DNA from: Armigeres subalbatus
Taxonomy: Eukaryota; Arthropoda; Insecta; Diptera; Culicidae
Length of the DNA: 64,000 bases
Direction of reading: 5' to 3'
Assembly (NCBI RefSeq): GCF_024139115.2
Contig: NC_085139.1
Coordinates: forward strand, 9,891,533 to 9,955,532
In this document: one piece after another, positions 7,940 to 49,718 of the stretch
How the letters are laid out: each line of letters begins with the position of its first letter
Numbering within the stretch: position 1 is the first letter of the stretch
Program-made: the position numbers and the translations under genes
The notes under the pieces: generated by a model
The model's database searches: none
Told to the model about the DNA's origin: nothing
The model's input: the letters and a program-made list of their open reading frames with translations, nothing else

Positions 7940-9121
7940 ATGGCCCCTCCAAAAGGAGGAGGAAAAAAGAAAAAGGCAACCGGCGATACGCTTCCCAAGC
8001 TTGAAGGTCATCGTGAAGGTCCAAAATTCGTGGTCGTCAAACGCGTGGACAGGAAAGATGCATCTTTCGAAAAGGTCAGTCCCATCTTTATTCAAAAAGG
8101 AATCAAAAGTGCTTGCGGAGATCCACTCAACGTCATTAAGCTACGTGACGGAGCGCTGTTAGTCAAAACCAGAAATATCAGCCAAGCGAACCAACTTCTC
8201 CGATGTAAGATGTTGTTCGATATGGAAATTATCGTCGAAGAGAACACGAAGCTGAATCAGACGAAAGGCATCATCACATGTGCAGATTTGAGGTATGCTA
8301 CTGAAGAGAAGATACTTGAAGATCTACAGGAGCAAGGAGTTTGTGAAGTCGACGTTATGAAACGAAAAAACGAAGGTAAACTCATCTCAGCCAACAACTA
8401 CATCACCGTCCACCGTTATCCCGGATACAGTCAAAGTCGGCTACCACGTTTTCAATGTGCGTCTTTTCATCCCCGACCGATGAGGTGCTACAAATGCCAG
8501 TATTTCGGACATTCATCGAAGTTTTGTACAAAGGAAGAGGTTTGTAGCAACTGTTGTCGAGTAGGTCACACTTCCGAAGACTGTTCAGGAAAAACGATAT
8601 GTAGAAACTGCAATTCAACAGAGCATGCGTCATGGTCTAACAAATGCAAGGTATTCGAAACCGAACAAGAAATCACGCGAATCAAAGTTACCGAAAATGT
8701 AAGTATTAGGGAGGCTCGGCAGTTGTATAAGATCAGATTTCCCAATAACAATATCACATACAGCGAAGTGGTTAGAGTCAGTCAGGTAGATAACTCACGC
8801 ACTAGATCAGATCCAGAGAGTCAGCCAGGAATTATATCTCAGAATTCTCAGAACTCCCTCGCGTTCTCACCACGGCGACATACAGACACTCAGCTCACAT
8901 TGACAAGTACATCGCACCCTGGTGCAGTGCTCGATGATAGGAATAGGACTAACGACATGGACTATCAAGTAGCTAAAATTTCTCGCCCTCTCTCTCAAGA
9001 CACGAATGATCTCGTAGATTTTCGAAATGATGCCAAGCGAATGAAAGGCACTCAATCATCCTCGAGTCGCAGTAGTAGAATCTCGGAGCTCGATGCTTCC
9101 CTCTCTAGCAATGGATTCTAA
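7940..9121 (+). CDS. LINE ORF1 nucleic-acid-binding protein (393 aa)
   Basis: This Gag-like RNA-binding protein packages LINE RNA. It starts with a Lys/Gly-rich basic N-terminus (MAPPKGGGKKKK). The central half contains an RRM-like region by position only. Three CCHC-type knuckles follow around residues 180-240: C-YK-C-QYFG-H-SSKF-C, C-SN-C-CRVG-H-TSED-C and C-RN-C-NSTE-H with a longer last spacing. The C-terminus is Ser-rich. The start at 7940 is the first ATG of the open frame after a 179-bp 5' UTR. The stop (9119-9121) overlaps the ORF2 start at 9111, suggesting coupled translation. The frame is intact, unlike ORF2. Confidence 0.88.
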   Translation: MAPPKGGGKKKKATGDTLPKLEGHREGPKFVVVKRVDRKDASFEKVSPIFIQKGIKSACGDPLNVIKLRDGALLVKTRNISQANQLLRCKMLFDMEIIVEENTKLNQTKGIITCADLRYATEEKILEDLQEQGVCEVDVMKRKNEGKLISANNYITVHRYPGYSQSRLPRFQCASFHPRPMRCYKCQYFGHSSKFCTKEEVCSNCCRVGHTSEDCSGKTICRNCNSTEHASWSNKCKVFETEQEITRIKVTENVSIREARQLYKIRFPNNNITYSEVVRVSQVDNSRTRSDPESQPGIISQNSQNSLAFSPRRHTDTQLTLTSTSHPGAVLDDRNRTNDMDYQVAKISRPLSQDTNDLVDFRNDAKRMKGTQSSSSRSSRISELDASLSSNGF

Positions 9122-12100
9122 AAGCTCCATTATCCAATGGAATTGCAATGGCTTTTTCAATAATTTTCAAGAAATTAAACTCTTGGACGCCAAGTTTCAT
9201 CCAACCGTTATTTGCTTACAAGAATCACACCTAAAGTATAGTAACTCATCTACTTTTCGAAATTTTGATATTCACAGATGTGACTTTGTATTTGATAACG
9301 ATAGAGCACGCGGTGGTGTATTGACGTTGGTCAGATCACAATTTTTCTCCCGAAGCATCCAAGTGAGTACACAACTCCAAGCTGTTGTTGTCGAACTTCT
9401 CCATCCTTGCAAATTTACTCTATGTAACATTTACCTCCCTCCAAATGAAAATATTTCCTACGAAGACCTAGTTAAGCTGATTACACAATTGCCGAAGCCG
9501 TTCATAATTGTCGGTGATTTCAATGCGCATCATAGCAACTGGGGATCAAAGTTTACCTCAGTCAGAGGTAAAATAATCGCTAAATTAATCTCAAATTTCG
9601 ATCTCAATCTCTTCAATGACGGAAAAGGCACTCGTTTAAATCCTACTAACGGTAACGAAACATGTATTGATTTAACCATTTGTTCGGCAGCTTTAAGCGT
9701 TTTTTTCTCATGGAATGTCCATCACGATACTTGTAATAGTGATCATTATCCCATCCTTTTAACACCACTCAACACTCGTATAGTAGATGAAAAACGTCCC
9801 CATTGGATTTTAGAAACAGCTGATTGGAACAAGTTCTCCCAACTCGTCGAATTCAAAGACACGTTTTTCGACAAATCAATCGATGATCAGAATTCTCACA
9901 TCGTAAATGCTATTATTAATGCCGCGAATCAGTCTATAAAAAATCATCCGCCAAAATTGGACAAAAAGCGTTCCTTGGTGGAATTCTTCTATATCAAAGG
10001 CTCTAAAAGACAGAAATCACAGTTTAAACTTCTTCAAAAACATCCAACATCTGCTAATGAACAGCGTTTCAAAATATGTAAATCTAAAGCTAGGGCTCTC
10101 ATGCGATATCATAGCAAACAATCGTGGAGAAAAATGGTGGCGTCAATAAACTCTAATGTTCCCCAGACTCGAATTTGGAAACAAATCAGAAGTATTAATG
10201 GGAGACATCAAACCAATAAATTAACATCTAAAAAGCATAACGACTCCATCATCTCGAACTCTATGGACATTGTTGAGCTTCTAGGGAAGCACTTCTCTAA
10301 TGTTTCTTCTTCTAACAACTATTCTCCATCCTTTAAAAAACATAAATCAATTATGGAAAAAACTTCTTTCAGGATAATAGATAACACTGAACCATACAAC
10401 AAACCAATCACAAAACTCGAGTTCCAATCATCCTTGAATTTAACAAAAGGTTCTTCTCCTGGATTTGATATGATTCATTATGAAATGATAAAGCATTTAT
10501 CTCAACCTTGTAAAACGTACTTATTAAAATTCTACGACCGCATATGGTCACAAAAGTGTTTCCCGACGAATGGAGACTTTCTATACTAATCCCTATCATC
10601 AAACCCGGTAAAGATCCATCACTAGCATCCAGCTATCGTCCAATATCTTTGACAAGTTGTTTGTGTAAGCTCCTCGAAAGAATTATTAACAAAAGACTTT
10701 CCTGGTACATCGAATCCAATAATATCTTATCTAATTTCCAATTCGGTTTCCGTCGCGGTCGTTCCACGATTGATAGTCTAACTATTCTAGAATCTGACAT
10801 ACAACAATCTTTCTTGAGAAAACAGCATACTTATGCAATATTCTTCGATTTGGAGAAAGCTTACGATTTAACATGGCATAGATTAATTTTGAACAAATTA
10901 AAATCAATAGGAATAGATGGCAATATGTTGAGTTTTATAATGAATTTTCTTAAAACCGTAAATTTAGAGTATTGCAAGGAAACACATTCTCGTCTTCATA
11001 TGAATTAGAAAATGGAATTCCTCAGGGTGCTGTTCTTAGCGTTATTCTTTTCCTATTGGCAATAGACGATATTACTAAGCAAAATGATCCAAAATGCAGA
11101 ATGTTACTCTATGCAGATGATATAGTATTATATATGTCATCTAGCTATCTAAAATCGATTCAAAAACGAATTCAATTAACAATTAATAAAATGCAAAAAT
11201 GGTTGTCCGACCATGGATTTCGAATTTCAATTTTAAAGACCTCCTGTATGCACTTTTGCAGAAGAAAAAAACATAGTTCGAATCTTTCATTCCGCATTAA
11301 TGATGAAAAGATTCGGGAAGTTGAGGAAGTAAGATTTCTCGGCATGATTTTTGATAAAAGGTTGTCCTGGCGAACTCATATTGAGCAAACGAAAAAAAAA
11401 TCTTTAAAAGCTATGAATATCATCAAAACATTATCGCACATCAAATGGGGTTCTGATCGTAAAACACTAATAAAATTACACAACTCTCTTGTTTTATCTC
11501 GCTTAGAATATGGGGACTGTATATACTCATCCGCATCTTCAAATCTTCTGAAGTCTCTGGACTCTGTACACCACCAAGGTCTGCGTTTAGCGAGTGGAGC
11601 ATTCCGTTCTTCACCTATATCAAGTATACTAGTGGATACACATTTTATGCCTTTGAATGTTCGAAGAGATCAACACATTTTATTCCAAATGGCCAGAATT
11701 CTACGTAATCCAACTCATCCTATGATAGAATCAATACAACAAACATCCATGGATAGTAACACCAAAAGTCAAATATTTCCCGCAAGGTGTTTTAGAATAC
11801 TAAATAGTATTAATTTAGAATTACCAAAGATTCGAACAGAAATCATCGGAAAAAATGCTCCATGGTTACTTCAAAAACTTGATATAAATATTGAACAAAA
11901 TGCTTTTCCAAAAACTAGTACAAACACTAATATTTTTAAAACTATGTTTTGCCAAATGCGTCATGCGAATTCTGATTATCGATTCATGTTTACTGATGGC
12001 TCAAAACGAACTCTTTGTCCTCGTGTGCCTTTTCGACGAAGATAAAAATGTAATTAAGCAAATTAGACTGCCTAATTACTGTTCTGTGTATAACGCTGAA

Positions 12101-13475: not shown

Positions 13476-14916
13476 TTAAAAAACAGCTTTTACGTGTGAA
13501 ATACAAAGTCTCTTGAACTGTGATAGTGTCCTTGCACGCTTGATGTGTATAGGCATCGAATTGAATACGTTTATTCCTTTATAAAACAATGAATTTTGTG
13601 AAGCTCCATACAAAAAATAAGGTGTTCTTATTTCATCCGCGTTTCTAGTATTATATCTATGAATGTCACTTCCTCTTTCAATTCGATTACACAAATATCG
13701 GGGCAGCAATCCATTTATTATTTTGAAAATGAACACCATAGTTGAATAAACAATTCTTTGCTTCACTGATAGCCATTGTAAAGCGTCCAACAAAAAGGAG
13801 GAGGAAGTGAATCTATTACATCTCAAAATCAAGCGCATAACTTTATTTTGCAAACGCTGTAACCTCGATATTTGTGTTTCATTGGCCAGAAATAAAATGG
13901 AGGCGCAAAAGTCCAGGTGAGGAGAGATGATTGATTTGTACAACTGTATTTTACTCGCAACAGTTAATTCGTTTTTTAATCGACATAAAATTCCATACTT
14001 CTTGGCTATTTTCTTGATGACATTGTTGATATGAGAATCAAATTTCAATTTATCATCAATAATCACGCCAAGATATTTAATTTCCCGAACGCGATCAAGT
14101 GTTTCATCATCAATTCTAACAGAAACATTATCAATGAATCGATTTCGCGAAATTACCATGTATTTAGTTTTACTTATATTCAACTTCAACTGTTTGTACT
14201 TCATCCATCTACTTAGAGAATGCAAATCTGTATTCAAGCGTGAAACAACATCATCGATATTTCTAGCTACAATGAATAATACTGTGTCATCCGCGAAAAG
14301 ATTAATGTTACAAAAACGTAAGACCCGTCCCATGTCATTAATATACATAATAAATAAAACGGGCCCTAATACACTTCCCTGTGGAACACCAAGATTACTT
14401 TCCATGGGATTTGAAACACAATCATTAAAAACAGTCCTTTGGATTCTGTCAGACAAATAGCTTCTGAACCATTCATACGCAGAACCCGAAATTCCAAAGC
14501 GCTTGATTTTTTCCAACAATAAGGGCCTAGAGATTGTTTCAAAGACGCGTTTAAGATCCAAAAATACAGCAATGATAGTATCCTTACACTCCATGTTTTC
14601 TTTCCATTTGGCTAACACTAAGTTCAATGCGGTTTCACAAGAATGTCCTTCTCGATATCCCGATTTCTCTTGTATTAACAAGTTATTATTATTCAAATAT
14701 GTTACTAACTGGCCTTTCACAACAAGTTCTAATATTTTATCTAATATGTGCAACATGTTGATGGGACGAAACTCTTCGGCTTTAATCGTTCCAGCAACTT
14801 TTTGAATAGGAATTATAAGAGATTCCTTCCAAACCTGCGGCACGTGCCCGGTTCTCAAAGATTCATTAATAAGGTCCAGCAGTTTGTGTCCAATGACATG
14901 AAAACAATCTTGTATA
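13476..14916 (-). pseudogene. CR1/L2-group LINE ORF2, 3' half (reverse transcriptase)
   Basis: About 475 codons open without interruption. From the insertion junction the frame reads IQDCFHVIGHKLLDLINESL, then the RT core: PVFKEFRP-like motif IKAEEFRPINMLHILDKILE, SGYREGHSCETAL, FLDLKRVFETI, GVPQGSVLGPVLF (around 14361-14391) and FADDTVLF (catalytic DD at about 14285-14299). The C-terminal region has the CR1/L2-like SRLQRLQNKVMRLIL and YNTRNADEIRTP. There is no RNase H, as expected for this group. The 5' half of the same gene lies at 26947-28040; a 12-kb insertion separates them. Each half is clean, so the element was probably intact when hit. Confidence 0.9.
14891..14916. repeat. 26-bp duplication, left copy, flanking the 12-kb insertion
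   Basis: Begins CAATGACATG and ends TTGTATA. It is identical over 26 bp to 26947-26972, and the bases just outside differ (C versus T before; TGAG versus ACTC after). It behaves as the target-site duplication of whatever occupies 14917-26946. Confidence 0.93.
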
Positions 14917-17900
14917 TGAGTTTTGTGCGTGATCTCTCTTGTTTCGGACCGCAGAACGATCGCGCGGTCAAACGAATTATTGTGTTCTGCATTGCGCGGC
15001 CGGTAATAAAATTTATCAGTTCTGTGCGTGATCTCTCTTGTTTCGGACAGCAGAACGATCGCGCGGTAGGACGAATTATTGTGTTCTGCATTGCGCGGCC
15101 GGTAATAAAATTGATCAGTTTTGTGCGTGATCTCTCTTGTTTCGGACAGCAGAACGATCGCGCGGTCGGACGAATTATTGTGTTCTGCATTGCGCGGCCG
15201 GTAATAAAATTGATCAGTTTCGTGCGTGATCTCTCTTGTTTCGGACCGCAGAACGATCGCGCGGTCAAACGAATTATTGTGTTCTGCATTGCGCGGCCGG
15301 TAATAAAATTTATCAGTTCTGTGCGTGATCTCTCTTGTTTCGGACAGCAGAACGATCGCGCGGTAGGACGAATTATTGTGTTCTGCATTGCGCGGCCGGT
15401 AATAAAATTGATCAGTTTTGTGCGTGATCTCTCTTGTTTCGGACAGCAGAACGATCGCGCGGTCGGACGAATTATTGTGTTCTGCATTGCGCGGCCGGTA
15501 ATAAAATTGATCAGTTTCGTGCGTGATCTCTCTTGTTTCGGACCGCAGAACGATCGCGCGGTCAAACGAATTATTGTGTTCTGCATTGCGCGGCCGGTAA
15601 TAAAATTTATCAGTTCTGTGCGTGATCTCTCTTGTTTCGGACAGCAGAACGATCGCGCGGTAGGACGAATTATTGTGTTCTGCATTGCGCGGCCGGTAAT
15701 AAAATTGATCAGTTTTGTGCGTGATCTCTCTTGTTTCGGACCGCAGAACGATCGCGCGGTCAAACGAATTATTGTGTTCTGCATTGCGCGACCGGTAATA
15801 AAATTTATCAGTTTTGTGCGTGTTCTCTCTTGTTTCGGACCGCAGAACGATCGTTCGGTCGGACGAATTATTGTGATCTGCATTGCGCGGCCGGTAATAA
15901 AATTTATCAGTTCTGTGCGTGATCTCTCTTGTTTCGGACAGCAGAACGATCGCGCGGTCGGACGAATTATTGTGTTCTGCATTGCGCGGCCGGTAATAAA
16001 ATTTATCAGTTCTGTGCGTGATCTCTCTTGTTTCGGACAGCAGAACGATCGCGCGGTCGAACGAATTATTGTGTTCTGCATTGCGCGGCCGGTAATAAAA
16101 TTTATCAGTTCTGTGCGTGATCTCTCTTGTTTCGGACAGCAGAACGATCGCGCGGTCGGACGAATTATTGTGTTCTGCATTGCGCGGCCGGTAATAAAAT
16201 TTATCAGTTCTGTGCGTGATCTCTCTTGTTTCGGACAGCAGAACGATCGCGCGGTCGGACGAATTATTGTGTTCTGCATTGCGCGGCCGGTAATAAAATT
16301 TATCAGTTCTGTGCGTGATCTCTCTTGTTTCGGACAGCAGAACGATCGCGCGGTCGGACGAATTATTGTGATCTGCATTGCGCGGCCGGTAATAAAATTT
16401 ATCAGTTCTGTGCGTGATCTCTCTTGTTTCGGACAGCAGAACGATCGCGCGGTCGGACGAATTATTGTGTTCTGCATTGCGCGGCCGGTAATAAAATTTA
16501 TCAGTTCTGTGCGTGATCTCTCTTGTTTCGGACAGCAGAACGATCGCGCGGTCGAACGAATTATTGTGTTCTGCATTGCGCGGCCGGTAATAAAATTTAT
16601 CAGTTCTGTGCGTGATCTCTCTTGTTTCGGACAGCAGAACGATCGCGCGGTCGAACGAATTATTGTGTTCTGCATTGCGCGGCCGGTAATAAAATTGATC
16701 AGTTTTGTGCGTGATCTCTCTTGTTTCGGACAGCAGAACGATCGCGCGGTCGGACGAATTATTGTGTTCTGCATTGCGCGGCCGGTAATAAAATTGATCA
16801 GTTTTGTGCGTGATCTCTCTTGTTTCGGACCGCAGAACGATCGCGCGGTCAAACGAATTATTGTGTTCTGCATTGCGCGGCCGGTAATAAAATTTATCAG
16901 TTCTGTGCGTGATCTCTCTTGTTTCGGACAGCAGAACGATCGCGCGGTAGGACGAATTATTGTGTTCTGCATTGCGCGGCCGGTAATAAAATTGATCAGT
17001 TTTGTGCGTGATCTCTCTTGTTTCGGACCGCAGAACGATCGCGCGGTCAAACGAATTATTGTGTTCTGCATTGCGCGACCGGTAATAAAATTTATCAGTT
17101 TTGTGCGTGTTCTCTCTTGTTTCCGGACCGCAGAACGATCGTTCGGTCGGACGAATTATTGTGATCTGCATTGCGCGGCCGGTAATAAAATTTATCAGTT
17201 CTGTGCGTGATCTCTCTTGTTTCGGACAGCAGAACGATCGCGCGGTCGGACGAATTATTGTGTTCTGCATTGCGCGGCCGGTAATAAAATTTATCAGTTC
17301 TGTGCGTGATCTCTCTTGTTTCGGACAGCAGAACGATCGCGCGGTCGAACGAATTATTGTGTTCTGCATTGCGCGGCCGGTAATAAAATTGATCAGTTTT
17401 GTGCGTGATCTCTCTTGTTTCGGACAGCAGAACGATCGCGCGGTCGGACGAATTATTGTGTTCTGCATTGCGCGGCCGGTAATAAAATTTATCAGTTCTG
17501 TGCGTGATCTCTCTTGTTTCGGACAGCAGAACGATCGCGCGGTCGGACGAATTATTGTGTTCTGCATTGCGCGGCCGGTAATAAAATTTATCAGTTCTGT
17601 GCGTGATCTCTCTTGTTTCGGACAGCAGAACGATCGCGCGGTCGGACGAATTATTGTGTTCTGCATTGCGCGGCCGGTAATAAAATTGATCAGTTTTGTG
17701 CGTGATCTCTCTTGTTTCGGACCGCAGAACGATCGCGCGGTCAAACGAATTATTGTGTTCTGCATTGCGCGACCGGTAATAAAATTTATCAGTTTTGTGC
17801 GTGTTCTCTCTTGTTTCGGACCGCAGAACGATCACTCGGTCGGACGAATTATTGTGATCTGCATTGCGCGGCCGGTAATAAAATTTATCAGTTCTGTGCG

Positions 17901-20900
17901 TGATCTCTCTTGTTTCGGACAGCAGAACGATCGCGCGGTCGGACGAATTATTGTGTTCTGCATTGCGCGGCCGGTAATAAAATTTATCAGTTCTGTGCGT
18001 GATCTCTCTTGTTTCGGACAGCAGAACGATCGCGCGGTCGGACGAATTATTGTGTTCTGCATTGCGCGGCCGGTAATAAAATTGATCAGTTTTGTGCGTG
18101 ATCTCTCTTGTTTCGGACAGCAGAACGATCGCGCGGTCGGACGAATTATTGTGTTCTGCATTGCGCGGCCGGTAATAAAATTTATCAGTTCTGTGCGTGA
18201 TCTCTCTTGTTTCGGACAGCAGAACGATCGCGCGGTCGGACGAATTATTGTGTTCTGCATTGCGCGGCCGGTAATAAAATTTATCAGTTCTGTGCGTGAT
18301 CTCTCTTGTTTCGGACAGCAGAACGATCGCGCGGTCGGACGAATTATTGTGTTCTGCATTGCGCGGCCGGTAATAAAATTGATCAGTTTTGTGCGTGATC
18401 TCTCTTGTTTCGGACAGCAGAACGATCGCGCGGTCGGACGAATTATTGTGTTCTGCATTGCGCGGCCGGTAATAAAATTGATCAGTTTTGTGCGTGATCT
18501 CTCTTGTTTCGGACAGCAGAACGATCGCGCGGTCGGACGAATTATTGTGTTCTGCATTGCGCGGCCGGTAATAAAATTGATCAGTTTTGTGCGTGATCTC
18601 TCTTGTTTCGGACCGCAGAACGATCGCGCGGTCAAACGAATTATTGTGTTCTGCATTGCGCGACCGGTAATAAAATTTATCAGTTTTGTGCGTGTTCTCT
18701 CTTGTTTCGGACCGCAGAACGATCGTTCGGTCGGACGAATTATTGTGATCTGCATTGCGCGGCCGGTAATAAAATTTATCAGTTCTGTGCGTGATCTCTC
18801 TTGTTTCGGACAGCAGAACGATCGCGCGGTCGGACGAATTATTGTGTTCTGCATTGCGCGGCCGGTAATAAAATTTATCAGTTCTGTGCGTGATCTCTCT
18901 TGTTTCGGACAGCAGAACGATCGCGCGGTCGGACGAATTATTGTGTTCTGCATTGCGCGGCCGGTAATAAAATTGATCAGTTTTGTGCGTGATCTCTCTT
19001 GTTTCGGACCGCAGAACGATCGCGCGGTCAAACGAATTATTGTGTTCTGCATTGCGCGACCGGTAATAAAATTTATCAGTTTTGTGCGTGTTCTCTCTTG
19101 TTTCGGACCGCAGAACGATCACTCGGTCGGACGAATTATTGTGATCTGCATTGCGCGGCCGGTAATAAAATTTATCAGTTCTGTGCGTGATCTCTCTTGT
19201 TTCGGACAGCAGAACGATCGCGCGGTCGGACGAATTATTGTGTTCTGCATTGCGCGGCCGGTAATAAAATTTATCAGTTCTGTGCGTGATCTCTCTTGTT
19301 TCGGACAGCAGAACGATCGCGCGGTCGGACGAATTATTGTGTTCTGCATTGCGCGGCCGGTAATAAAATTGATCAGTTTTGTGCGTGATCTCTCTTGTTT
19401 CGGACAGCAGAACGATCGCGCGGTCGGACGAATTATTGTGTTCTGCATTGCGCGGCCGGTAATAAAATTTATCAGTTCTGTGCGTGATCTCTCTTGTTTC
19501 GGACAGCAGAACGATCGCGCGGTCGGACGAATTATTGTGTTCTGCATTGCGCGGCCGGTAATAAAATTTATCAGTTCTGTGCGTGATCTCTCTTGTTTCG
19601 GACAGCAGAACGATCGCGCGGTCGAACGAATTATTGTGTTCTGCATTGCGCGGCCGGTAATAAAATTGATCAGTTTTGTGCGTGATCTCTCTTGTTTCGG
19701 ACAGCAGAACGATCGCGCGGTCGGACGAATTATTGTGTTCTGCATTGCGCGGCCGGTAATAAAATTGATCAGTTTTGTGCGTGATCTCTCTTGTTTCGGA
19801 CCGCAGAACGATCGCGCGGTCAAACGAATTATTGTGTTCTGCATTGCGCGGCCGGTAATAAAATTTATCAGTTCTGTGCGTGATCTCTCTTGTTTCGGAC
19901 AGCAGAACGATCGCGCGGTAGGACGAATTATTGTGTTCTGCATTGCGCGGCCGGTAATAAAATTGATCAGTTTTGTGCGTGATCTCTCTTGTTTCGGACC
20001 GCAGAACGATCGCGCGGTCAAACGAATTATTGTGTTCTGCATTGCGCGACCGGTAATAAAATTTATCAGTTTTGTGCGTGTTCTCTCTTGTTTCGGACCG
20101 CAGAACGATCGTTCGGTCGGACGAATTATTGTGATCTGCATTGCGCGGCCGGTAATAAAATTTATCAGTTCTGTGCGTGATCTCTCTTGTTTCGGACAGC
20201 AGAACGATCGCGCGGTCGGACGAATTATTGTGTTCTGCATTGCGCGGCCGGTAATAAAATTGATCAGTTCTGTGCGTGATCTCTCTTGTTTCGGACAGCA
20301 GAACGATCGCGCGGTCGAACGAATTATTGTGTTCTGCATTGCGCGGCCGGTAATAAAATTGATCAGTTTTGTGCGTGATCTCTCTTGTTTCGGACAGCAG
20401 AACGATCGCGCGGTCGGACGAATTATTGTGTTCTGCATTGCGCGGCCGGTAATAAAATTTATCAGTTCTGTGCGTGATCTCTCTTGTTTCGGACAGCAGA
20501 ACGATCGCGCGGTCGGACGAATTATTGTGTTCTGCATTGCGCGGCCGGTAATAAAATTTATCAGTTCTGTGCGTGATCTCTCTTGTTTCGGACAGCAGAA
20601 CGATCGCGCGGTCGGACGAATTATTGTGTTCTGCATTGCGCGGCCGGTAATAAAATTGATCAGTTTTGTGCGTGATCTCTCTTGTTTCGGACCGCAGAAC
20701 GATCGCGCGGTCAAACGAATTATTGTGTTCTGCATTGCGCGACCGGTAATAAAATTTATCAGTTTTGTGCGTGTTCTCTCTTGTTTCGGACCGCAGAACG
20801 ATCACTCGGTCGGACGAATTATTGTGATCTGCATTGCGCGGCCGGTAATAAAATTTATCAGTTCTGTGCGTGATCTCTCTTGTTTCGGACAGCAGAACGA

Positions 20901-23900
20901 TCGCGCGGTCGGACGAATTATTGTGTTCTGCATTGCGCGGCCGGTAATAAAATTTATCAGTTCTGTGCGTGATCTCTCTTGTTTCGGACAGCAGAACGAT
21001 CGCGCGGTCGGACGAATTATTGTGTTCTGCATTGCGCGGCCGGTAATAAAATTGATCAGTTTTGTGCGTGATCTCTCTTGTTTCGGACAGCAGAACGATC
21101 GCGCGGTCGGACGAATTATTGTGTTCTGCATTGCGCGGCCGGTAATAAAATTTATCAGTTCTGTGCGTGATCTCTCTTGTTTCGGACAGCAGAACGATCG
21201 CGCGGTCGGACGAATTATTGTGTTCTGCATTGCGCGGCCGGTAATAAAATTTATCAGTTCTGTGCGTGATCTCTCTTGTTTCGGACAGCAGAACGATCGC
21301 GCGGTCGGACGAATTATTGTGTTCTGCATTGCGCGGCCGGTAATAAAATTTATCAGTTCTGTGCGTGATCTCTCTTGTTTCGGACAGCAGAACGATCGCG
21401 CGGTCGGACGAATTATTGTGTTCTGCATTGCGCGGCCGGTAATAAAATTTATCAGTTCTGTGCGTGATCTCTCTTGTTTCGGACAGCAGAACGATCGCGC
21501 GGTCGGACGAATTATTGTGTTCTGCATTGCGCGGCCGGTAATAAAATTGATCAGTTTTGTGCGTGATCTCTCTTGTTTCGGACAGCAGAACGATCGCGCG
21601 GTCGGACGAATTATTGTGTTCTGCATTGCGCGGCCGGTAATAAAATTTATCAGTTCTGTGCGTGATCTCTCTTGTTTCGGACAGCAGAACGATCGCGCGG
21701 TCGGACGAATTATTGTGTTCTGCATTGCGCGGCCGGTAATAAAATTTATCAGTTCTGTGCGTGATCTCTCTTGTTTCGGACAGCAGAACGATCGCGCGGT
21801 CGGACGAATTATTGTGTTCTGCATTGCGCGGCCGGTAATAAAATTGATCAGTTTTGTGCGTGATCTCTCTTGTTTCGGACAGCAGAACGATCGCGCGGTC
21901 GGACGAATTATTGTGTTCTGCATTGCGCGGCCGGTAATAAAATTTATCAGTTCTGTGCGTGATCTCTCTTGTTTCGGACAGCAGAACGATCGCGCGGTCG
22001 GACGAATTATTGTGTTCTGCATTGCGCGGCCGGTAATAAAATTTATCAGTTCTGTGCGTGATCTCTCTTGTTTCGGACAGCAGAACGATCGCGCGGTCGG
22101 ACGAATTATTGTGTTCTGCATTGCGCGGCCGGTAATAAAATTTATCAGTTCTGTGCGTGATCTCTCTTGTTTCGGACAGCAGAACGATCGCGCGGTCGGA
22201 CGAATTATTGTGTTCTGCATTGCGCGGCCGGTAATAAAATTGATCAGTTTTGTGCGTGATCTCTCTTGTTTCGGACAGCAGAACGATCGCGTGGTCGGAC
22301 GAATTATTGTGTTCTGCATTGCGCGACCGGTAATAAAATTTATCAGTTCTGTGCGTGATCTCTCTTGTTTCGGACAGCAGAACGATCGCGCGGTCGGACG
22401 AATTATTGTGTTCTGCATTGCGCGGCCGGTAATAAAATTGATCAGTTTTGTGCGTGATCTCTCTTGTTTCGGACCGCAGAACGATCGCGCGGTCAAACGA
22501 ATTATTGTGTTCTGCATTGCGCGACCGGTAATAAAATTTATCAGTTTTGTGCGTGTTCTCTCTTGTTTCGGACAGCAGAACGATCGCGCGGTCGGACGAA
22601 TTATTGTGTTCTGCATTGCGCGGCCGGTAATAAAATTGATCAGTTTTGTGCGTGATCTCTCTTGTTTCGGACCGCAGAACGATCGCGCGGTCAAACGAAT
22701 TATTGTGTTCTGCATTGCGCGACCGGTAATAAAATTTATCAGTTTTGTGCGTGTTCTCTCTTGTTTCGGACAGCAGAACGATCACTCGGTCGGACGAATT
22801 ATTGTGTTCTGCATTGCGCGGCCGGTAATAAAATTGATCAGTTTTGTGCGTGATCTCTCTTGTTTCGGACCGCAGAACGATCGCGCGGTCAAACGAATTA
22901 TTGTGTTCTGCATTGCGCGACCGGTAATAAAATTTATCAGTTTTGTGCGTGTTCTCTCTTGTTTCGGACCGCAGAACGATCGTTCGGTCGGACGAATTAT
23001 TGTGATCTGCATTGCGCGGCCGGTAATAAAATTTATCAGTTCTGTGCGTGATCTCTCTTGTTTCGGACAGCAGAACGATCGCGCGGTCGGACGAATTATT
23101 GTGTTCTGCATTGCGCGGCCGGTAATAAAATTTATCAGTTCTGTGCGTGATCTCTCTTGTTTCGGACAGCAGAACGATCGCGCGGTCGAACGAATTATTG
23201 TGTTCTGCATTGCGCGGCCGGTAATAAAATTGATCAGTTTTGTGCGTGATCTCTCTTGTTTCCGGACAGCAGAACGATCGCGCGGTCGGACGAATTATTG
23301 TGTTCTGCATTGCGCGGCCGGTAATAAAATTTATCAGTTCTGTGCGTGATCTCTCTTGTTTCGGACAGCAGAACGATCGCGCGGTCGGACGAATTATTGT
23401 GTTCTGCATTGCGCGGCCGGTAATAAAATTTATCAGTTCTGTGCGTGATCTCTCTTGTTTCGGACAGCAGAACGATCGCGCGGTCGGACGAATTATTGTG
23501 TTCTGCATTGCGCGGCCGGTAATAAAATTTATCAGTTTTGTGCGTGATCTCTCTTGTTTCGGACCGCAGAACGATCGCGCGGTCAAACGAATTATTGTGT
23601 TCTGCATTGCGCGACCGGTAATAAAATTTATCAGTTTTGTGCGTGTTCTCTCTTGTTTCGGACCGCAGAACGATCACTCGGTCGGACGAATTATTGTGAT
23701 CTGCATTGCGCGGCCGGTAATAAAATTTATCAGTTCTGTGCGTGATCTCTCTTGTTTCGGACAGCAGAACGATCGCGCGGTCGGACGAATTATTGTGTTC
23801 TGCATTGCGCGGCCGGTAATAAAATTTATCAGTTCTGTGCGTGATCTCTCTTGTTTCGGACAGCAGAACGATCGCGCGGTCGGACGAATTATTGTGTTCT

Positions 23901-26333
23901 GCATTGCGCGGCCGGTAATAAAATTTATCAGTTCTGTGCGTGATCTCTCTTGTTTCGGACAGCAGAACGATCGCGCGGTCGGACGAATTATTGTGTTCTG
24001 CATTGCGCGGCCGGTAATAAAATTTATCAGTTCTGTGCGTGATCTCTCTTGTTTCGGACAGCAGAACGATCGCGCGGTCGGACGAATTATTGTGTTCTGC
24101 ATTGCGCGGCCGGTAATAAAATTGATCAGTTTTGTGCGTGATCTCTCTTGTTTCGGACAGCAGAACGATCGCGCGGTCGGACGAATTATTGTGTTCTGCA
24201 TTGCGCGACCGGTAATAAAATTTATCAGTTTTGTGCGTGTTCTCTCTTGTTTCGGACCGCAGAACGATCACTCGGTCGGACGAATTATTGTGATCTGCAT
24301 TGCGCGGCCGGTAATAAAATTTATCAGTTCTGTGCGTGATCTCTCTTGTTTCGGACAGCAGAACGATCGCGCGGTCGGACGAATTATTGTGTTCTGCATT
24401 GCGCGGCCGGTAATAAAATTTATCAGTTCTGTGCGTGATCTCTCTTGTTTCGGACAGCAGAACGATCGCGCGGTCGGACGAATTATTGTGTTCTGCATTG
24501 CGCGACCGGTAATAAAATTTATCAGTTTTGTGCGTGATCTCTCTTGTTTCGGACCGCAGAACGATCGCTCGGTCGGACGAATTATTGTGATCTGCATTGC
24601 GCGGCCGGTAATAAAATTTATCAGTTCTGTGCGTGATCTCTCTTGTTTCGGACCGCAGAACGATCGCGCGGTCGAACGAATTATTGTGTTCTGCATTGCG
24701 CGGCCGGTAATAAAATTAATCAGTTCTGTGCGTGATCTCTCTTGTTTCGGACAGCAGAACGATCGCGCGGTCGGACGAATTATTGTGATCTGCATTGCGC
24801 GGCCGGTAATAAAATTTATCAGTTCTGTGCGTGATCTCTCTTGTTTCGGACAGCAGAACGATCGCGCGGTCGGACGAATTATTGTGTTCTGCATTGCGCG
24901 GCCGGTAATAAAATTTATCAGTTCTGTGCGTGATCTCTCTTGTTTCGGACAGCAGAACGATCGCGCGGTCGGACGAATTATTGTGTTCTGCATTGCGCGG
25001 CCGGTAATAAAATTTATCAGTTCTGTGCGTGATCTCTCTTGTTTCGGACAGCAGAACGATCGCGCGGTCGGACGAATTATTGTGTTCTGCATTGCGCGGC
25101 CGGTAATAAAATTGATCAGTTTTGTGCGTGATCTCTCTTGTTTCGGACCGCAGAACGATCACTCGGTCGGACGAATTATTGTGATCTGCATTGCGCGGCC
25201 GGTAATAAAATTTATCAGTTCTGTGCGTGATCTCTCTTGTTTCGGACAGCAGAACGATCGCGCGGTCGGACGAATTATTGTGTTCTGCATTGCGCGGCCG
25301 GTAATAAAATTTATCAGTTCTGTGCGTGATCTCTCTTGTTTCGGACAGCAGAACGATCGCGCGGTCGGACGAATTATTGTGTTCTGCATTGCGCGGCCGG
25401 TAATAAAATTTATCAGTTCTGTGCGTGATCTCTCTTGTTTCGGACAGCAGAACGATCGCGCGGTCGGACGAATTATTGTGTTCTGCATTGCGCGGCCGGT
25501 AATAAAATTTATCAGTTCTGTGCGTGATCTCTCTTGTTTCGGACAGCAGAACGATCGCGCGGTCGGACGAATTATTGTGTTCTGCATTGCGCGGCCGGTA
25601 ATAAAATTTATCAGTTCTGTGCGTGATCTCTCTTGTTTCGGACAGCAGAACGATCGCGCGGTCGGACGAAATATTGTGTTCTGCATTGCGCGGCCGGTAA
25701 TAAAATTGATCAGTTTTGTGCGTGATCTCTCTTGTTTCGGACAGCAGAACGATCGCGCGGTCGGACGAATTATTGTGTTCTGCATTGCGCGACCGGTAAT
25801 AAAATTTATCAGTTTTGTGCGTGTTCTCTCTTGTTTCGGACCGCAGAACGATCACTCGGTCGGACGAATTATTGTGATCTGCATTGCGCGGCCGGTAATA
25901 AAATTTATCAGTTCTGTGCGTGATCTCTCTTGTTTCGGACAGCAGAACGATCGTTCGGTCGGACGAATTATTGTGTTCTGCATTGCGCGGCCGGTAATAA
26001 AATTTATCAGTTCTGTGCGTGATCTCTCTTGTTTCGGACAGCAGAACGATCGCGCGGTCGGACGAATTATTGTGTTCTGCATTGCGCGACCGGTAATAAA
26101 ATTTATCAGTTTTGTGCGTGATCTCTCTTGTTTCGGACCGCAGAACGATCGCTCGGTCGGACGAATTATTGTGATCTGCATTGCGCGGCCGGTAATAAAA
26201 TTAATCAGTTCTGTGCGTGATCTCTCTTGTTTCGGACAGCAGAACGATCGCGCGGTCGGACGAATTATTGTGATCTGCATTGCGCGGCCGGTAATAAAAT
26301 TTATCAGTTCTGTGCGTGATCTCTCTTGTTTCG
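14917..26333. repeat. 99-bp tandem array, 115 units
   Basis: Unit phase GTGCGTGATCTCTCTTG starts at 14925 and the last partial unit starts at 26312. The distance is 11387 = 115 x 99 + 2, and the two extra bases are single C insertions (TTTCCGGAC) near 17123 and 23262. A final 22-bp partial unit ends at 26333. Units differ at a few fixed diagnostic sites: GACCGCAG/GACAGCAG, GGTCAAAC/GGTCGGAC/GGTCGAAC/GGTAGGAC, GATCGCG/GATCGTT/GATCACT, GTGTTCTG/GTGATCTG, GCGGCCGG/GCGACCGG, and AATTTATC/AATTGATC. Homogeneity is very high, which indicates recent amplification. Very long open frames exist on both strands (for example minus 17095-23607 and plus 17101-23349) because 99 is a multiple of three. Confidence 0.98.
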
Positions 26334-26946
26334 AAGCGGGCTTGGTAGTCATATGGCTACTGCTTCTGCCTCATACGCAGGAGGTCGTGGGTTCAATCCC
26401 AGGTCCGTTCCATTCTCCTACTTTGTATCTTCCTCTATATTTCTCATGTTCTAGCAATCGCTAGAACTGGAAATGGACTTTCATACCGTTTCCATTTTTA
26501 TTCCTATACCTTCAACTTGAGTATTCTAACAGTAATCTGCTAGAATTGGAAATGAACTATAGAGCTCGTTTCCTACATCCAATTAGAAATTCCATCAGTT
26601 ACCTTCTCCTATCTATCACATTGGCAGCTCGTTAACCAAAACGGACCTCTGCCTCTCCAACCTAACCCAGAAATTCCAACAAATTCCGCATGAACTCGTG
26701 GCAAGTGCAGAGGTATATTCGGCTTGCAGTGGGCGAGTGATTGCATCATCATTTCCTCCCCTTCCCTACATTGACTTGCATTCTGACGTGGCAGGCGCCA
26801 GTATGACCTAACAAATGAGATCACCAGTACTTGTACATTGAAGATGTGTGCTAGTCCCAAGCAAACATCTGTTGGTTCTCTGTGCAAGAACAGCTGATCT
26901 GGTCATAATGGAGTAGCAACTACGAGCAGTCAATCAAGCTCAAGCT
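26334..26946 (+). mobile_element. Met-tRNA-like SINE with hexamer tail
   Basis: The head 26337-26407 is tRNA-like. Its acceptor ends CGGGCTT and AGGTCCG pair over 7 bp including wobbles. The CTGC/GCAG stem encloses the loop CTCATAC (anticodon CAT), and GGTTCAATCCC fits a Pol III B box. Five bases instead of one separate the D stem and anticodon stem, so it is not a functional tRNA. A body of about 530 bp follows, with no coding features. The 3' end is the short tandem tail TCAAGCTCAAGCTCAA (26936-26950), running directly into the 26-bp duplication. The array abuts its 5' end. Confidence 0.7.
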
Positions 26947-26972
26947 CAATGACATGAAAACAATCTTGTATA
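26947..26972. repeat. 26-bp duplication, right copy
   Basis: Exact copy of 14891-14916; it follows the SINE tail and lies in the reading frame of the interrupted LINE. Confidence 0.93.
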
Positions 26973-28040
26973 ACTCTAGCGTCAACGTTATCAACTCCAG
27001 CCGTTTTGCCCAAAGAAAAGCATATATTTTTAAGTTCATCAAAAGTAATTGGGTGAAAACAATCAAATCTACATGTACTATTAACCGGCTGTTTTATTTC
27101 ATCAGGCTCATCAACCAAATCGATAGACCGATTAATCGATGAAACACTATCGATGAAATAATCGTTAAAATTGCAAGCAATTACTTGTTCAGAATTTTCT
27201 AATGTGCCATTAAAAGTTATGGACCGCGGATTGGAACTATTAGGTTTCAACAAAGATTTCAAAATTGTTTGTTGCTGATCAATTTTCCTCTGAATATAAT
27301 CACAACGCGTTTTTTTCAACGATTGTGAATACGTGTTCCGCGCATTCTTGTACCTGTTCCAATTGTTACCACTATGTCTTCTCAAAAATCTATTGTTCAA
27401 TTTATCTCTTTTACGTCTTAGACGCAGAAGATCTAAATTGTACCAGCTGTTCGAGTTATTTAAAGTTACAAATTTATGTTCAATTAACTTATTGGTACTT
27501 GTTTTCAGAACGTTCGTTAGAAAAGCTGATTTCTGATCTAAGTTTCCGGAAATATCCTGAAAATCCACGTTTCTCGCAACAAGATCCGAAACAGCTTGTT
27601 TCGAATATTTCCTCCAATACTTCAATTTAACAAAATCATTTTCGGTTATATCATTATTTTCTATATTTATGACTAATGTTTCATGATCGGTTACTTTTAA
27701 ACAAATATCTGTAACTGAGTTTACAGAATCAAAGTTAGAATAAACATGATCAATTATAGTTCTACTGTGTCGGGAAATACGCGTGTAATCAACAACTTTT
27801 TGTTTCAAATTGTAAAACTCAGTCAGACGCTTTAAATGATTCGAATTTTCGTCACACCAATTAATATTAAAATCACCAGCAAGTACATTTAGTTTACTAA
27901 AATCGATAAAAATTTCTAGCCAGTTCTCTAAAATTTCAATAAAACGCTGGTCACTCGAACTGGGAGAATGATATAAAACACCATAATTACCCTTCTTCAT
28001 GCCACGTGCAACCGTAATGCCTAAGAACCAATCCCAACAA
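26947..28040 (-). pseudogene. CR1/L2-group LINE ORF2, 5' half (endonuclease and linker)
   Basis: Open from about 28035 down to the insertion. It encodes the middle and end of an AP-type endonuclease: GVLYHSPSSSDQRF, NVLAGDFNINW, RTIIDHVYSN and VTDHETLVI. A Lys/Arg-rich linker follows (LRLRRKRDKLNNRFLRR), and then the pre-RT region FDELKNICFSLGKTAGVDNV. The N-terminal third of the endonuclease is missing, so the element is 5' truncated near 28040. At the inner end the frame reads ARVIQDCFHVI through the duplicated target, joining the RT half in frame if the insertion were absent. Confidence 0.88.
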
Positions 28041-34197: not shown

Positions 34198-35690
34198 GCA
34201 AATATATCAAGATGAGGTCTTGTTTATTCTTCAATAACTGCCTAGAGCTAATGACAACAACTTGAACTACTTGAAATGCAAACATATACCTAGAGCCTTC
34301 CGTTCGTGGGTTGATCTGCAGATAATTCCTCTATAGAGTTCATAGACTACCTAGTACCATAGCAAAAACTACTTGGAATGCATACATTCACTCAGATGTG
34401 GTTGCAAAACAACTATTTTTTCAATTATTGGCTCCATCATGGAGGTTGATCAGCAGGTCTTGACCTCGATTTTATCAAGTTTTCGACCCAATTTTCCGCA
34501 AACAACAATGATTTGCACGAAATAACTTTTACCGCCTGTAACTTATTATGAATCATTTATGAGTACTTGGCAAGAAGCTTGTAAGTCTCTTCGACAATAA
34601 ATTACAGGTTTCATTCACGTATTTTGCCTTTCCAAGCCATAATCTGATTCATATTTGCGAAGCAAATAAATTTGAAATAAAAACTGTTCCGATTTTGTAA
34701 CATTTTCTACTTTATCACCCCAAAATTCACCAAGGGGGTGATAAAATCGGGATATTACTGTACCAAGAAGGGGTCACACAAAGTGTGTAATGTTCAATAA
34801 TTGCATTCATTACGGAGCCCACGACAAGGAAAATAACTATTTAAAATACAAACATATCCCAAGAAAGGGTCTCACAACTTGTTTATTTTCAAATAACTGC
34901 CTCCACTAAGGAGGTTGATCCACCGACCTTGACTCTATGGAGTTCATAGACTAGCTGGAGCCCAAAACAAAAACTACTTGGAATACAAACATATATCACG
35001 ATGGGGTTACAAAACTTGTTTATTCTTCGATAACTGCCTACATTACGGAGATTGATCCACAGACCTTGACTATATGGAGCTCGTAGACTACCTGGAACCA
35101 ATGACAACAACAAGACCTACTTGGAACACAAACATATACTAAGAAGGCGTACCACAGCTTGATTATTCTTCTATAACTGCATCCGTTACGGAGGTTGATC
35201 CATAGACCTTGACTCTATGGAGTTCATAGACTACCTGGAGCCCACGACGGCAACAAAAACTACTTGGAATACAAACATATACCAAGAAGGGGTCACGCAA
35301 CTTGCTTATTCTTCTAGACCTGCCTCCATTACGGAGATTGATCCGAAGGTCTTGACTGAATGGAGTTCGTAGACTACCTGGAATTCACGACAACAACAAG
35401 AACTACATGAAAGATAAACATATACCAAGAAGGGGTCACACACTTGTTTATTCTTCAATAACTGCCTCCAGTACGGAGGTTGATCCACAGACCTCGCATC
35501 CATGGAGTTCGTGGACTACCTGCAGTCCACGACAACAAGAACTACTTGGAATACAAACATAAACCAATAACTACATCCATTACGGAGGTTGATCCACAGA
35601 CCTTGACTATATGGAGTTCGTAGACTACCTGGAATCAATGACAACAACAAGAACTACTTGGAATGTGAACATGTTTTAAGAAGAGGTCAT
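34190..35690. repeat. Minisatellite of about 143 bp, 8-10 diverged units
   Basis: The landmark ACAAACATAT occurs at about 34848, 34984, 35128, 35271, 35414 (ATAAACATAT) and 35552, a spacing of 136-144 bp. Each unit carries GGAGGTTGATCCACAGACC, TATGGAGTTCATAGACTACC and ACTACTTGGAATAC. The first units (34200-34480) are more diverged, and an unrelated stretch lies at about 34480-34760. Confidence 0.85.
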
Positions 35691-42862: not shown

Positions 42863-43570
42863 CTAGATGTAGAGTGGGAATAGATGAATAAATTACTTAA
42901 TTAATATCATTGGTGTTTTCGCTCTACCAAATTTTAATTCTAATATCAGTCCATACGTTTAGTGCCAGTTCAGTCTACGAGTGTCAATTTTGTGTTAATT
43001 AGAACCCATGTTAGTAATCATGCCCAATCCGTGACCCCCGTGCACATTGGTGTTAGTTAAATTTAAATACCTGTCATAAATTCAAGGCTTGCTCCGATAA
43101 TCTTCTCGATTTCCATTCCTTCGAACATGCAATGCAAATTTAATCACGCAGCAAGCGCATTAACAAAAGCAGCTTTTCCTCACTTAATTCCGCAATTTAT
43201 TGTTGCAACGCATCGCTTTAATGGTGGGCGTCGTTTGCCGCTTTTAAAATTCCATTTCATTTCATTAATTATATAATTTCAATTAAATGAGTTAGCGGAC
43301 TGCCACTCCCCCGGGACGGAAAGCCGAGGGAAAGCTGCAATTTGCTTTCGAATTTCACCGTCCCGCAACCCAGCCCAGGACTGCAGCAATTCGACAACGT
43401 GTGGCCAAAGCAAGACTTGGGCCAGGCTCGGAGCGTGGCTGTCGGTGCGGGGTGGTTGTTTTTCTTATGTTTTTACGAAGCACTTCCGGCGATCCTTCGA
43501 TGATGTTGCCGACGAAGAAAAGAGCGCTGGCGCTTATCTTTAACTGTAGGAAAGTTTTTTCTTTCTTTTT
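42863..43570. other. Intron-like host DNA upstream of the collagen exon
   Basis: Unclassified, partly AT-rich with ATTA-type motifs (43140-43290). No further Gly-X-Y exon was seen on the minus strand. Confidence 0.45.
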
Positions 43571-46500
43571 CCCCGCTGTAAGTTTCTCCATATTCTTGTC
43601 AGTCAGAGTCTGAAGTATTTCCCGTTTGTTGTGTTCCATACTTCGGCGAAAAGTGTTCCGTGTGGAAAATGCCGAGCTGTGCAGGAATATTTAAAACTGA
43701 AATGAGGGGGATTAAGTGTTTCGCATTTTGTAAAAAAAAAGCTCGACAGCGAAGTGGGATTGTTGCATTTAAATTGATTACCTTGAGCGTAAGCAGCGCT
43801 GAAGGGAAAGAGAGCTGTTTTTTGGTCTGCTTGTCGACATCGAAACATAAATACAGTAAACGGTTTCAAGTAGGATTCGATTATATTGAAGCATTTTCAG
43901 GTCCGTTGTAAACATACGTAATTAATACCTTACGGGAAGACACCTTTACGTGGTGTGTTAAGCTCTACCATGGTCAAATTGCCAGCTACTGGCAAATCCT
44001 GATCCAGCGAATACCATTCCAATATCCAACTTCTTGATATTATGTCGCTAAGCCGAGGACTTTTAGTTAAGTAAGTTCATCATCAACATTTTGTTCCCCT
44101 CGCTAGTTACACACTTAAATCGAGATTTCTGCCTCGGTAATATTTTTTACCGATTTTGCCCGGTAATCATGAATTTTAACCGAGAGATCGGTTAATTTTG
44201 AAGAATTTACTGATGTTTGTAATATATTATACCGACTTCTCAGCAATGTAATACAGTTTACAGGGTTTTTGTAAATTAAATAACCGAGTTGCTCTGTTCA
44301 ACAAACTCTGTTTATAGATGTCAAAAAAATACCGAGCGATCAGTAAAACGAATGTGCTTTGCTGAGCTTACGGTAATACTTTTACCGAGCTCGGTCCCAG
44401 TAGACGCATGCATGACGCCATATTGTGTATACAGTTTTTCGGATTTTAAGTCGTAGTTTGTGCGCATATTTAGATGTCCAGCCAAAAAAAATTTGCTGGT
44501 GGATAATCCGGTAAGTATAGAAACGTGTTCGGTCGCTATAATATATAAAATAAAATATAAAATATATTAAACCTTTACTTGAATTTTAGAAAGTTTGCTG
44601 CATCGTTGAAGTTATTTCGTCCCCGTAATGAGGATAAAGGAAATCAATATGTTGCTGCTCATCGCCAACGCAGTCTACGGAAGGTGTCGAACTGATCTTC
44701 CTCCTGCTCGATTCATATTACCCGATGCACACCGTTGTACCCATTGGATCAAGTACCGAAACGCAATGAAAAGGAACGGTGATTGTAACGGTAGGGGTTT
44801 TGCAAGAAAGGCACATCTAATCATGCCGATACAGTTGCCGTTCCGTTCTATACGAGGTTATATATAAGGTAATGTGACCATACGTCCCGCGTTTCGCCGG
44901 ACAGTCCCACATTTTCCCAATTTGTCCCGCGCTGAAAAGCGTCCCGCGAAACGTCCTGCTTTCAACTTATTTCTTATTCATGTCCCGCGAAATACAGAAA
45001 AATAGAATACATTATTAACTATTAATTAGTTTTTTAAAGGCCCTCCTTAGCCATGCGGTAAGACGCGCGGCTACAAAGCAAGACCATGCTGAGGGTGGCT
45101 GGGTTCGATTCCCCGTACCGGTCTAGGCAATTTTCGGATTGGAAATTGTCTCGACTTCCTGGGCATAAAAGTATCATCGTGCTAGCCTCATGATATACGA
45201 ATGCAAAAATGGTAACCTGGCTTAGAAACCTCGCAGTTATTAACTGTGGAAGTGCTTAATGAACACTAAGCTGCGAGGCGGCTCTGTCCCAGTGTGGGGA
45301 TGTAATGCCAATAAGAAGAAGAAGTAGTATTTTTAAAAAAACTATTAGATTTTAAAAAATTAATAATTTTGACTTAGACTAACGTTTTGTAAGGCAATCA
45401 TATGGATCATAGAAATCAAGATTAAAATGTTCTCCTGTGACAAAAATTAAATTATCTCTATAGTTTGTTTTACCCAAGCCTCTTACCCTAGGAAGCTTGT
45501 AAGCAGATTTTGCTTCCATGTATTTCCTGCTGCGTAATTGCTTGGATTTCGACACGGAACGTCGAAAATTCCACTCCGTTTAAATGCCATGCGGACCAAA
45601 ATATTGCGGAAAATCTACCCCAGTTAGAAGACTGTGTTGATATTGGATATCGATAGCAACGTTGGGAAAAACTCAAATTCCTAAATCTGTTCCAAAATTT
45701 GAATCAAGCGCGAGTAAACACCTCATGGCACAAAGAATCGTTAGTGATTCTGTTGGCCATAAGAAGGAACCCCTCACGAAGAATAAAAACTAGAGTTCCC
45801 TTCTCTACACAACGGCAGGCTACGGACTGATACTTCTGCAAGCAGCTGCAGTTCTCTTTATTCAGCAATATACAATAAATCCATAACAATATTCCTTAAC
45901 CTACCCAAGAGCAACTACAACCAACTGGCGCCCGCTTTCTATCCATCTTCGATTTACAGCGAAGCGTCGCACACTACCTGATATTCCAACAGATTCGACT
46001 CGCGGTTTACATCATTGCTTGATTTATACGTGTTATTCTCCATTAAATTAATCGAATTTACTTTCTTGGTTAAAACAATTTGAAATAAATCCATAGGTAA
46101 CATAAAATACGCTTTTATTGGGTTTTGATGCTTTTTGAAGCGAAATCTTTTTTAGCGAATAAGCGGAACGATGCGATTCTGCATGCAAAAATCATGCACG
46201 ATGCTCTCTCTGCAGAATCGCAAGCGATCTGAAATAGGACGGAATTTTCGATTTTCTGAGCAGATACCTATTCTTATTCATTATCACCTGTTTTGAAATA
46301 AATTGGAGTTAAAACCGTGGAAACCAGAATAGGCCTTTAGAAAAATATGATCTAATTAATTCATAATCACAGTATCTACTTTTGTTAGGTATTTTAGAAA
46401 GAGTTATTTACGTTATTTGGAAAATAGTTTTCGAGGTTCGATATCATTGCTTCTATTGCTACAAAAAAAATTCTAACAAAATTCTATGAACTAAACGATC

Positions 46501-46646: not shown

Positions 46647-46651
46647 ACATT

Positions 46652-49600: not shown

Positions 49601-49718
49601 TTTTCAACTGCTATTCGATAGTTGCAACAGTTTTGCAGATATTGGACTAACTGTCCGCTAAACTTCAAAATTATTCTAATTCTATTATTCAGCTCCATTG
49701 AGCTACACATTCAACATT
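46652..49718. repeat. 3.07-kb tandem duplication, copy B
   Basis: Direct repeat of copy A with scattered substitutions and small indels; for example about 20 bp before the Feilai SINE in A are absent in B. Both copies contain the SINE at the same place, so duplication followed SINE insertion. Confidence 0.95.

Follow-up and report, generated by a model that had tools for sequence, protein, structure and literature searches.

A probable young composite retroelement family in the mosquito Armigeres subalbatus, joining rows of predicted Pol II promoter monomers to a tRNA-headed SINE

Tandem promoter monomers at the 5' end of a retroelement are described for mouse L1Md, in which a variable number of monomers of about 200 bp precede a coding long interspersed nuclear element (LINE), individual copies start within a monomer at a favoured position interpreted as the start of transcription, and a row of 50 monomers is mentioned (PMC6454616). 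The hominoid-specific SVA and LAVA elements combine an Alu-like 5' part, a central variable number of tandem repeats (VNTR) with units of 30-50 bp, and a poly(A) tail (PMC4432496, PMC4859970). Here we describe an insertion in a 64,000-nucleotide stretch of Armigeres subalbatus DNA (NC_085139.1, positions 9,891,533 to 9,955,532; called the window below, and the frame for all positions given without a contig name), in which a 99-bp tandem array is fused to a short interspersed nuclear element (SINE) with a tRNA-like head. The block is very probably one member of a young composite family of non-autonomous retroelements without long terminal repeats, in which RNA polymerase II (Pol II) promoter monomers are fused to a SINE of the RNA polymerase III (Pol III) type.

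The layout of the family is (99-bp monomer)n, tRNA-headed SINE, (TCAAGC)n tail, and the composite resembles both the mouse L1Md monomers and SVA. As in L1Md, the 5' monomers vary in number, here from 1.28 to 115 units, and a preferred start is used, by 13 of the 16 arrays bounded by a target site duplication (TSD). Unlike in L1Md, the monomer is 99 bp long, carries motifs of the insect initiator/DPE type (described below) and sits on a tRNA-headed SINE; coding capacity for the L1 open reading frames ORF1 and ORF2 is absent from the insert, which consists of the array and a 613-bp SINE and whose long frames are array repeats. In contrast to SVA and LAVA as defined in PMC4432496, the repeat forms the 5' terminus, the head is tRNA-like and the 3' part is a tRNA-type SINE. 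The WEIRD/SINE/LINE chimeras of Magnaporthe likewise join copies of different RNAs within one TSD, but are described as separate template switches (PMC2104539), whereas one fixed junction is found here in many copies. In the squamate SINE-derived satellites a SINE and a tandem array also occur together, the repeat unit there being part of the SINE (PMC10702118); the best matches between the 99-bp unit and the SINE studied here are only 7-8 bp. Finally, mosquitoes have tandem repeats in the tapiR satellites, which give rise to PIWI-interacting RNAs (PMC9781653, PMC9962485). Membership of the array in that group was rejected, as the 99-bp unit matches tapiR1 and tapiR2 best at 15 of 30 and 15 of 29 ungapped positions, within the range of shuffled controls. 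Tandem promoter monomers on LINEs and VNTR composites in apes are already known; for a SINE with tandem Pol II promoter monomers we found no report among the titles and abstracts listed for open-licence papers, and since many papers on mosquito transposons are in subscription journals, this absence is unproven.

The insertion and its host LINE are made up of the following features.

13476-14916, minus strand: reverse-transcriptase portion of the LINE, comprising the 3' half of the host copy (RVT_1, E 2e-32, Pfam)
14891-14916, no strand: left target site duplication, 26 bp, exact match to 26947-26972
14917-14918, plus strand: TG, which the array does not encode at this phase; G 14918 is interpreted as a copied Pol II cap
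14919-26333, plus strand: array of 115 99-bp monomers, beginning with the initiator A of the first unit and ending at unit position 32 of the final, incomplete one
26302-26333, plus strand: last partial monomer, unit positions 1-32, fused to the SINE; same junction in 21 of 40 SINE copies
26334-26946, plus strand: tRNA-headed SINE, 613 bp; 40 scored copies, 99-100% identity
26336-26412, plus strand: tRNA-like head, called tRNA-Met (CAT) by ARAGORN; putative Pol III-type internal promoter
26495-26499, plus strand: TTTTT in the SINE body, a possible Pol III stop
26934-26946, plus strand: (TCAAGC)n SINE tail, whose repeat runs on as CAA into the TSD
26947-26972, no strand: right target site duplication, 26 bp, exact match to the left copy
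26973-28033, minus strand: LINE endonuclease-side part of the same 5'-truncated copy, aligning with residues 90-459 of protein P0001

The 26-mer CAATGACATGAAAACAATCTTGTATA occurs in exactly two direct copies, at 14891-14916 and 26947-26972, and in no reverse-orientation copy; about 5e-7 exact direct repeats of 26 bases would be expected by chance within 64 kb. The window also contains longer exact repeats, which come from a real 3-kb duplication at 43.6-49.7 kb. When the insert (12,056 bp) is left out and one 26-mer is kept, an uninterrupted LINE frame of 834 amino acids is restored. RVT_1 lies in its left flank, and the right flank alone matched no Pfam family. P0001, a relative found by protein search that is 81% identical to the host LINE, aligns by residues 452-930 with the left flank and by residues 90-459 with the right flank, and the overlap of 8 residues is the target duplication itself. 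The original observation, that array and SINE lie together between exact 26-bp repeats inside a LINE coding region, is thereby confirmed, as is the figure of about 115 units (Tandem Repeats Finder reports a single array at 14915-26333 with period 99, 115.3 copies and 96% matches); the interpretation that both entered in one insertion event is supported. That both ends abut the repeats was accurate as to order, with the array on the left and the SINE tail on the right, but not to the base: TG separates the left repeat from the first array base, and the SINE tail shares its final CAA with the right repeat, which leaves a TSD length of 23-26 bp.

Compared with P0001, about 89 residues are missing from the N-terminus of the host LINE copy, which was therefore probably dead on arrival. 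Its uninterrupted frame limits neutral divergence since the LINE insertion to at most about 0.6-1.45% (95%; the value varies with the indel rate assumed), or 2.7% if stop codons alone are counted. Relatives of this LINE were sought among viral contigs and none was confirmed. A second LINE, at 7940-12045, has endonuclease and reverse transcriptase (Pfam) in overlapping or broken frames, and its first open reading frame appears by eye to be zinc-knuckle-like.

Copies were sought in the window's own assembly (1,335,692,571 bases; large contigs C1, C2 and C3 of 318.6, 465.0 and 430.1 Mb). The SINE query gave 3093 first-look candidates, of which 40 were scored and their flanks read, and all counts are lower bounds. 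The array is present at an identical junction in 21 of these 40 copies, namely the window and 20 others, and the remaining 19 are array-less and begin at the tRNA head. The common breakpoint joins unit position 32 to AAGCGGGC; the last partial monomer thus retains the initiator, and the DPE-like box described below is truncated away. A query with the junction itself matched in full, at 99-100%, at 39 scored places among 1385 candidates, a subset from which the window's own junction is absent. That the SINE carried additional 5' sequence, as originally proposed, is therefore supported, and the array was indeed found 5' of the tRNA head elsewhere in the genome and not as a one-off; where an end was reached, the arrays, that of the window included, measure 1.28 to 115 units. 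The median length is 4.55 units for the 19 arrays whose left edge was seen, some of them phase-corrected by a few bases for this median and three (m002, L021 and L012) being minimum values, as these arrays continue past interruptions. Two further arrays (L037 and L043) exceed the fetched stretch, at about 22.8 units each. Two other copies hold 56 units, and the 115 units of the window are the longest of the 19. The 40 SINE copies differ pairwise by 0.65% on average over 600 columns, and of the variable columns (minor base in at least 3 copies) none distinguishes the copies with an array from those without, apart from position 1, which is the start.

The copies are dispersed and have (TCAAGC)n tails; most lie between TSDs, and those with an array have a preferred start. 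TSDs were scored by local alignment, for which 400 mismatched flank pairs gave a maximum score of 10; scores of 19-31 were obtained for 14 array copies, and of at least 19 for 18 of the 19 array-less copies. With later array interruptions allowed for, two more arrays (m002 and L021) show TSDs of 25 and 22 bases, which brings the array copies with TSD to 16 of 21. The nucleotide at which 13 of these 16, the window's copy among them, begin is the A at unit position 5, within TCAGTT (11 of the first 14; P about 4e-18). The base before this A is G in all 13, where the array encodes C; in one ambiguous case (L019) the G could belong to an imperfect TSD, and several copies have one or more further bases between the TSD and the G. 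Within the window array, all of the 114 remaining units have C at unit position 4, and this position is G in one of 335 interior units of the arrays (L037 omitted, since its splitting into units failed after a partial unit). Array-less copies with TSD have a G outside the TSD before their start in 3 of 18 cases, as counted by eye, versus 11 of 11 array copies (Fisher P 1e-5). Genome-wide, an exact 30-mer that opens with GAGTT and continues into the array has 78 matches at 77 loci; the one opening with TAGTT has 8, which fall at 3 places and include 6 within the array of L037. Two of the starts that lie elsewhere, near unit position 77 (L026 and L028), form a possible second start cluster (CATTGCGCGG), and one of these (L028) also has an unencoded G before the start.

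The preferred start coincides with what looks like an insect core promoter. TCAGTT surrounds the start with its A as +1, and GGACA, preceded by C, lies at +28 to +32 from this A. The downstream promoter element (DPE) has an established consensus, RGWYV, and an established spacing; GGACA fits the consensus at the right spacing and is therefore called DPE-like. TCAGTT in turn fits the Drosophila initiator TCAGTY, and the DPE motif is listed in the same source as CGGACGT, C preceding GGACA here likewise (PMC1779564). Both motifs are present in 330 of the 335 interior units, and the initiator consensus matches the consensus unit at no other position. From these motifs the 99-bp monomers are predicted to be Pol II promoters. 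The unencoded G before the start A is read as the mark of a copied mRNA cap, as has been done for the untemplated G at full-length SVA and LINE-1 ends (PMC4859970).

The mechanism we propose is as follows. Each monomer would bear an insect-type Pol II core promoter, composed of the initiator TCAGTT and the DPE-like GGACA, and transcription would begin in one monomer and proceed through the remaining monomers and the SINE. Enzymes of a LINE partner would then reverse-transcribe the capped RNA into a nicked target, which would yield an array of n+0.28 units that opens with the copied cap G and is bounded by a TSD of about 18-34 bp. The array-less copies would stem from another, uncapped transcript, presumably made by Pol III from the tRNA head; the window element would have landed in a dead 5'-truncated LINE, with its 115 units present in one complementary DNA (cDNA) or partly added by later unequal exchange. 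A single SINE family thus seems to be mobile both as a long form, which starts in a monomer and has the extra G, and as a short form, whose first bases are AAGC or AGC of the tRNA head and which mostly lacks the extra G. The simplest reading would take these forms as Pol II and Pol III transcripts, respectively. The broader proposition, which we hold to be somewhat better than even, is that a SINE family acquired a self-propagating row of Pol II promoters, so that it has two polymerase entry points (Pol II at each monomer and Pol III at the tRNA head), moves in long capped and short uncapped forms, and by retrotransposition spreads satellite-like arrays as long as about 12 kb through the genome.

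Several observations weigh against this picture. The polymerases would be identified here by end positions, the extra G and motifs. For five of the 21 array copies no TSD was obtained (two extend beyond the fetched sequence, one is interrupted and two are unexplained), and 3 of the 16 TSD-bounded arrays start elsewhere than at unit position 5, one at position 7 (m006) and the two mentioned above near 77. At least six units of one array (L037) read TAGTT, departing from the initiator consensus. The genome-wide comparison of GAGTT with TAGTT covers only G and T as the base before AGTT. Variant density in the two core motifs is 0.73 distinct variants per site versus 0.95 elsewhere, which is not significant (P 0.29), and stronger constraint on the core-promoter motifs was rejected on this ground. 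At the SINE, ARAGORN reports the tRNA-like gene at 26336-26412, but Rfam, at E up to 0.1 within 14000-28000, matched nothing at the head. The run of five T at SINE position 162 would be expected to impede Pol III, and still the array-less copies are full length at their 3' end.

The variation among the units bears on how the array reached 115 of them. Units of the window array differ from each other at 3.24 of 99 positions on average and at 8 of 99 at most. The array is homogeneous, with few changes private to one unit, and contains block duplications in which blocks of up to 10 units are repeated. It was originally proposed that a SINE copy with a single extra 5' unit was inserted here and that this unit was amplified about 115-fold in place. 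Such an origin would account for the homogeneity, the block duplications and the scarcity of private changes, and also for 18T, 48A, 49T, 55A and 56A, which occur in several window units and in none of the other copies read. We nevertheless consider it very improbable. The same junction with an array in 20 other scored copies contradicts a one-off event. The window array starts near unit position 5 and stops at 32, mid-unit at both ends and with no unique 5' or other flanking remnant, which indicates that what was inserted already consisted of tandem units. A single-unit origin is further disfavoured because the units diverge more than the limit set by the dead LINE, and because simulated growth in place from two identical units (36 settings, with d = 0.76, 1.0 and 1.45%) reached the observed diversity with at most 5 private changes in no more than 7 of 150 runs per setting. 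Moreover, other copies share eight substitution variants with the window array (1A, 1G, 9T, 36C, 50T, 57A, 71A and 85A) as well as an inserted C, by common descent or recurrent mutation, and part of the variety of the window array was probably imported. Unit order beside the SINE varies, with at most two positions (partial unit included) agreeing with the window outward from the junction. A less extreme course keeps the composite family as described and supposes that the inserted cDNA had tens of units or fewer, later unequal exchange having raised it to 115; this has a serious claim, in our estimate slightly short of even. The median of 4.55 units agrees with it, as does the position of 115 as the longest of 19 lengths, three of them minimum values, and the 50-monomer promoter of mouse L1Md is attributed to unequal crossing-over (PMC6454616). 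The block duplications and the presence of the window-only variants in many units also speak for it, and the latter leave room for some growth in place; block duplication occurred either in the source or in place. On the other side stand the two copies with 56 units and a GAGTT mark 12.2 kb upstream of one junction, as another array may be equally long. Such marks were found up to 20 kb upstream in 23 of the 39 junction places and not in the other 16; two of the marks, which may or may not belong to the same array as the junction, are far upstream, at 12.2 kb and 17.9 kb.

The remaining alternatives concern the origin of the junction, the start and the locus as such. A LINE reverse transcriptase may have switched templates, passing from SINE RNA to satellite RNA in the course of a single insertion, and TSD-bounded chimeras of this kind are known (PMC2104539). 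However, the breakpoint recurs in 21 of the 40 SINE copies and in the 39 scored junction places, and a breakpoint shared across copies disfavours independent template jumps; a one-off chimera is thus barely credible here, although a single founding jump could have made the family. The start site and extra G might instead reflect a fixed stop of the reverse transcriptase or a preferred priming site of the second strand, and the two copies that start near unit position 77 show that ends can gather elsewhere too. We regard this as unlikely, since ends at +1 of a consensus initiator, a properly spaced DPE-like box and an unencoded G fit a capped start better, the corresponding G of SVA and LINE-1 being taken for a cap as well. 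Long arrays are prone to misassembly, and the block could in principle be an assembly join or a product of recombination; the exact TSD, the recovery of the LINE frame and an identical arrangement at loci with short arrays make this about as hard to credit as the one-off chimera. The composite retroelement family therefore remains the reading that we prefer.

Other explanations of the array itself were tried and rejected. A known structured RNA or ribozyme found no support, as Rfam gave nothing for 14000-28000 at E up to 0.1, and the predicted folding of a two-unit stretch is no better than that of shuffles (z -0.43). Rolling-circle reverse transcription of one circular RNA does not agree with units that differ at up to 8 of 99 positions. 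A coding array was dismissed as there were no protein relatives at E 0.01 among 7994 candidates scored; three of the six frames of the unit are open, which is unremarkable for 33 codons. Searches with the unit and SINE patterns gave no matches in viral contigs and a further set of genome contigs, and a search of phage records likewise found nothing.

Some additional observations were made in the family and in the window. The GAGTT mark 12.2 kb upstream of an array-SINE junction belongs to the interval C2:282444892 to C2:282457079, and the array there is perhaps as long as that of the window. In another array (L037, C2:63081247-63082860), at least six units have T in place of the C that precedes the initiator A. 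These units lie 198 or 396 bp apart, which may reflect a higher-order repeat of two units. The duplication noted above is a tandem one of about 3.08 kb (43569-49718), with two copies that are 95% identical and share exact stretches of up to 263 bp. Inside it lies a different tRNA-like SINE head (GCGGTAAGACGCGCGGCTACAAAGC...GGGTTCGATTCCC, identified by eye) at 45054-45115, with a second copy near 48121, and the flank of one SINE copy (L003) resembles the adjoining sequence. Arrays of a 22-bp AAGCTT-rich unit (AAGCTTTCTAAGCTTCTGGGAG) are located at 59-1414 and 1866-2191, the second being more diverged, and a 143-bp tandem repeat with about five copies and 79% matches is located at 34814-35567.

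If the proposed mechanism is true, it would constitute a direct route from a mobile element to dispersed satellite DNA, and would account for the appearance of a large tandem array, flanked by a target duplication, at a site that had none before. The family would be an insect counterpart of the mouse L1 monomers, placed on a SINE, and would let the gain of a promoter, the growth of an array and the choice of polymerase be read from the ends of its insertions.

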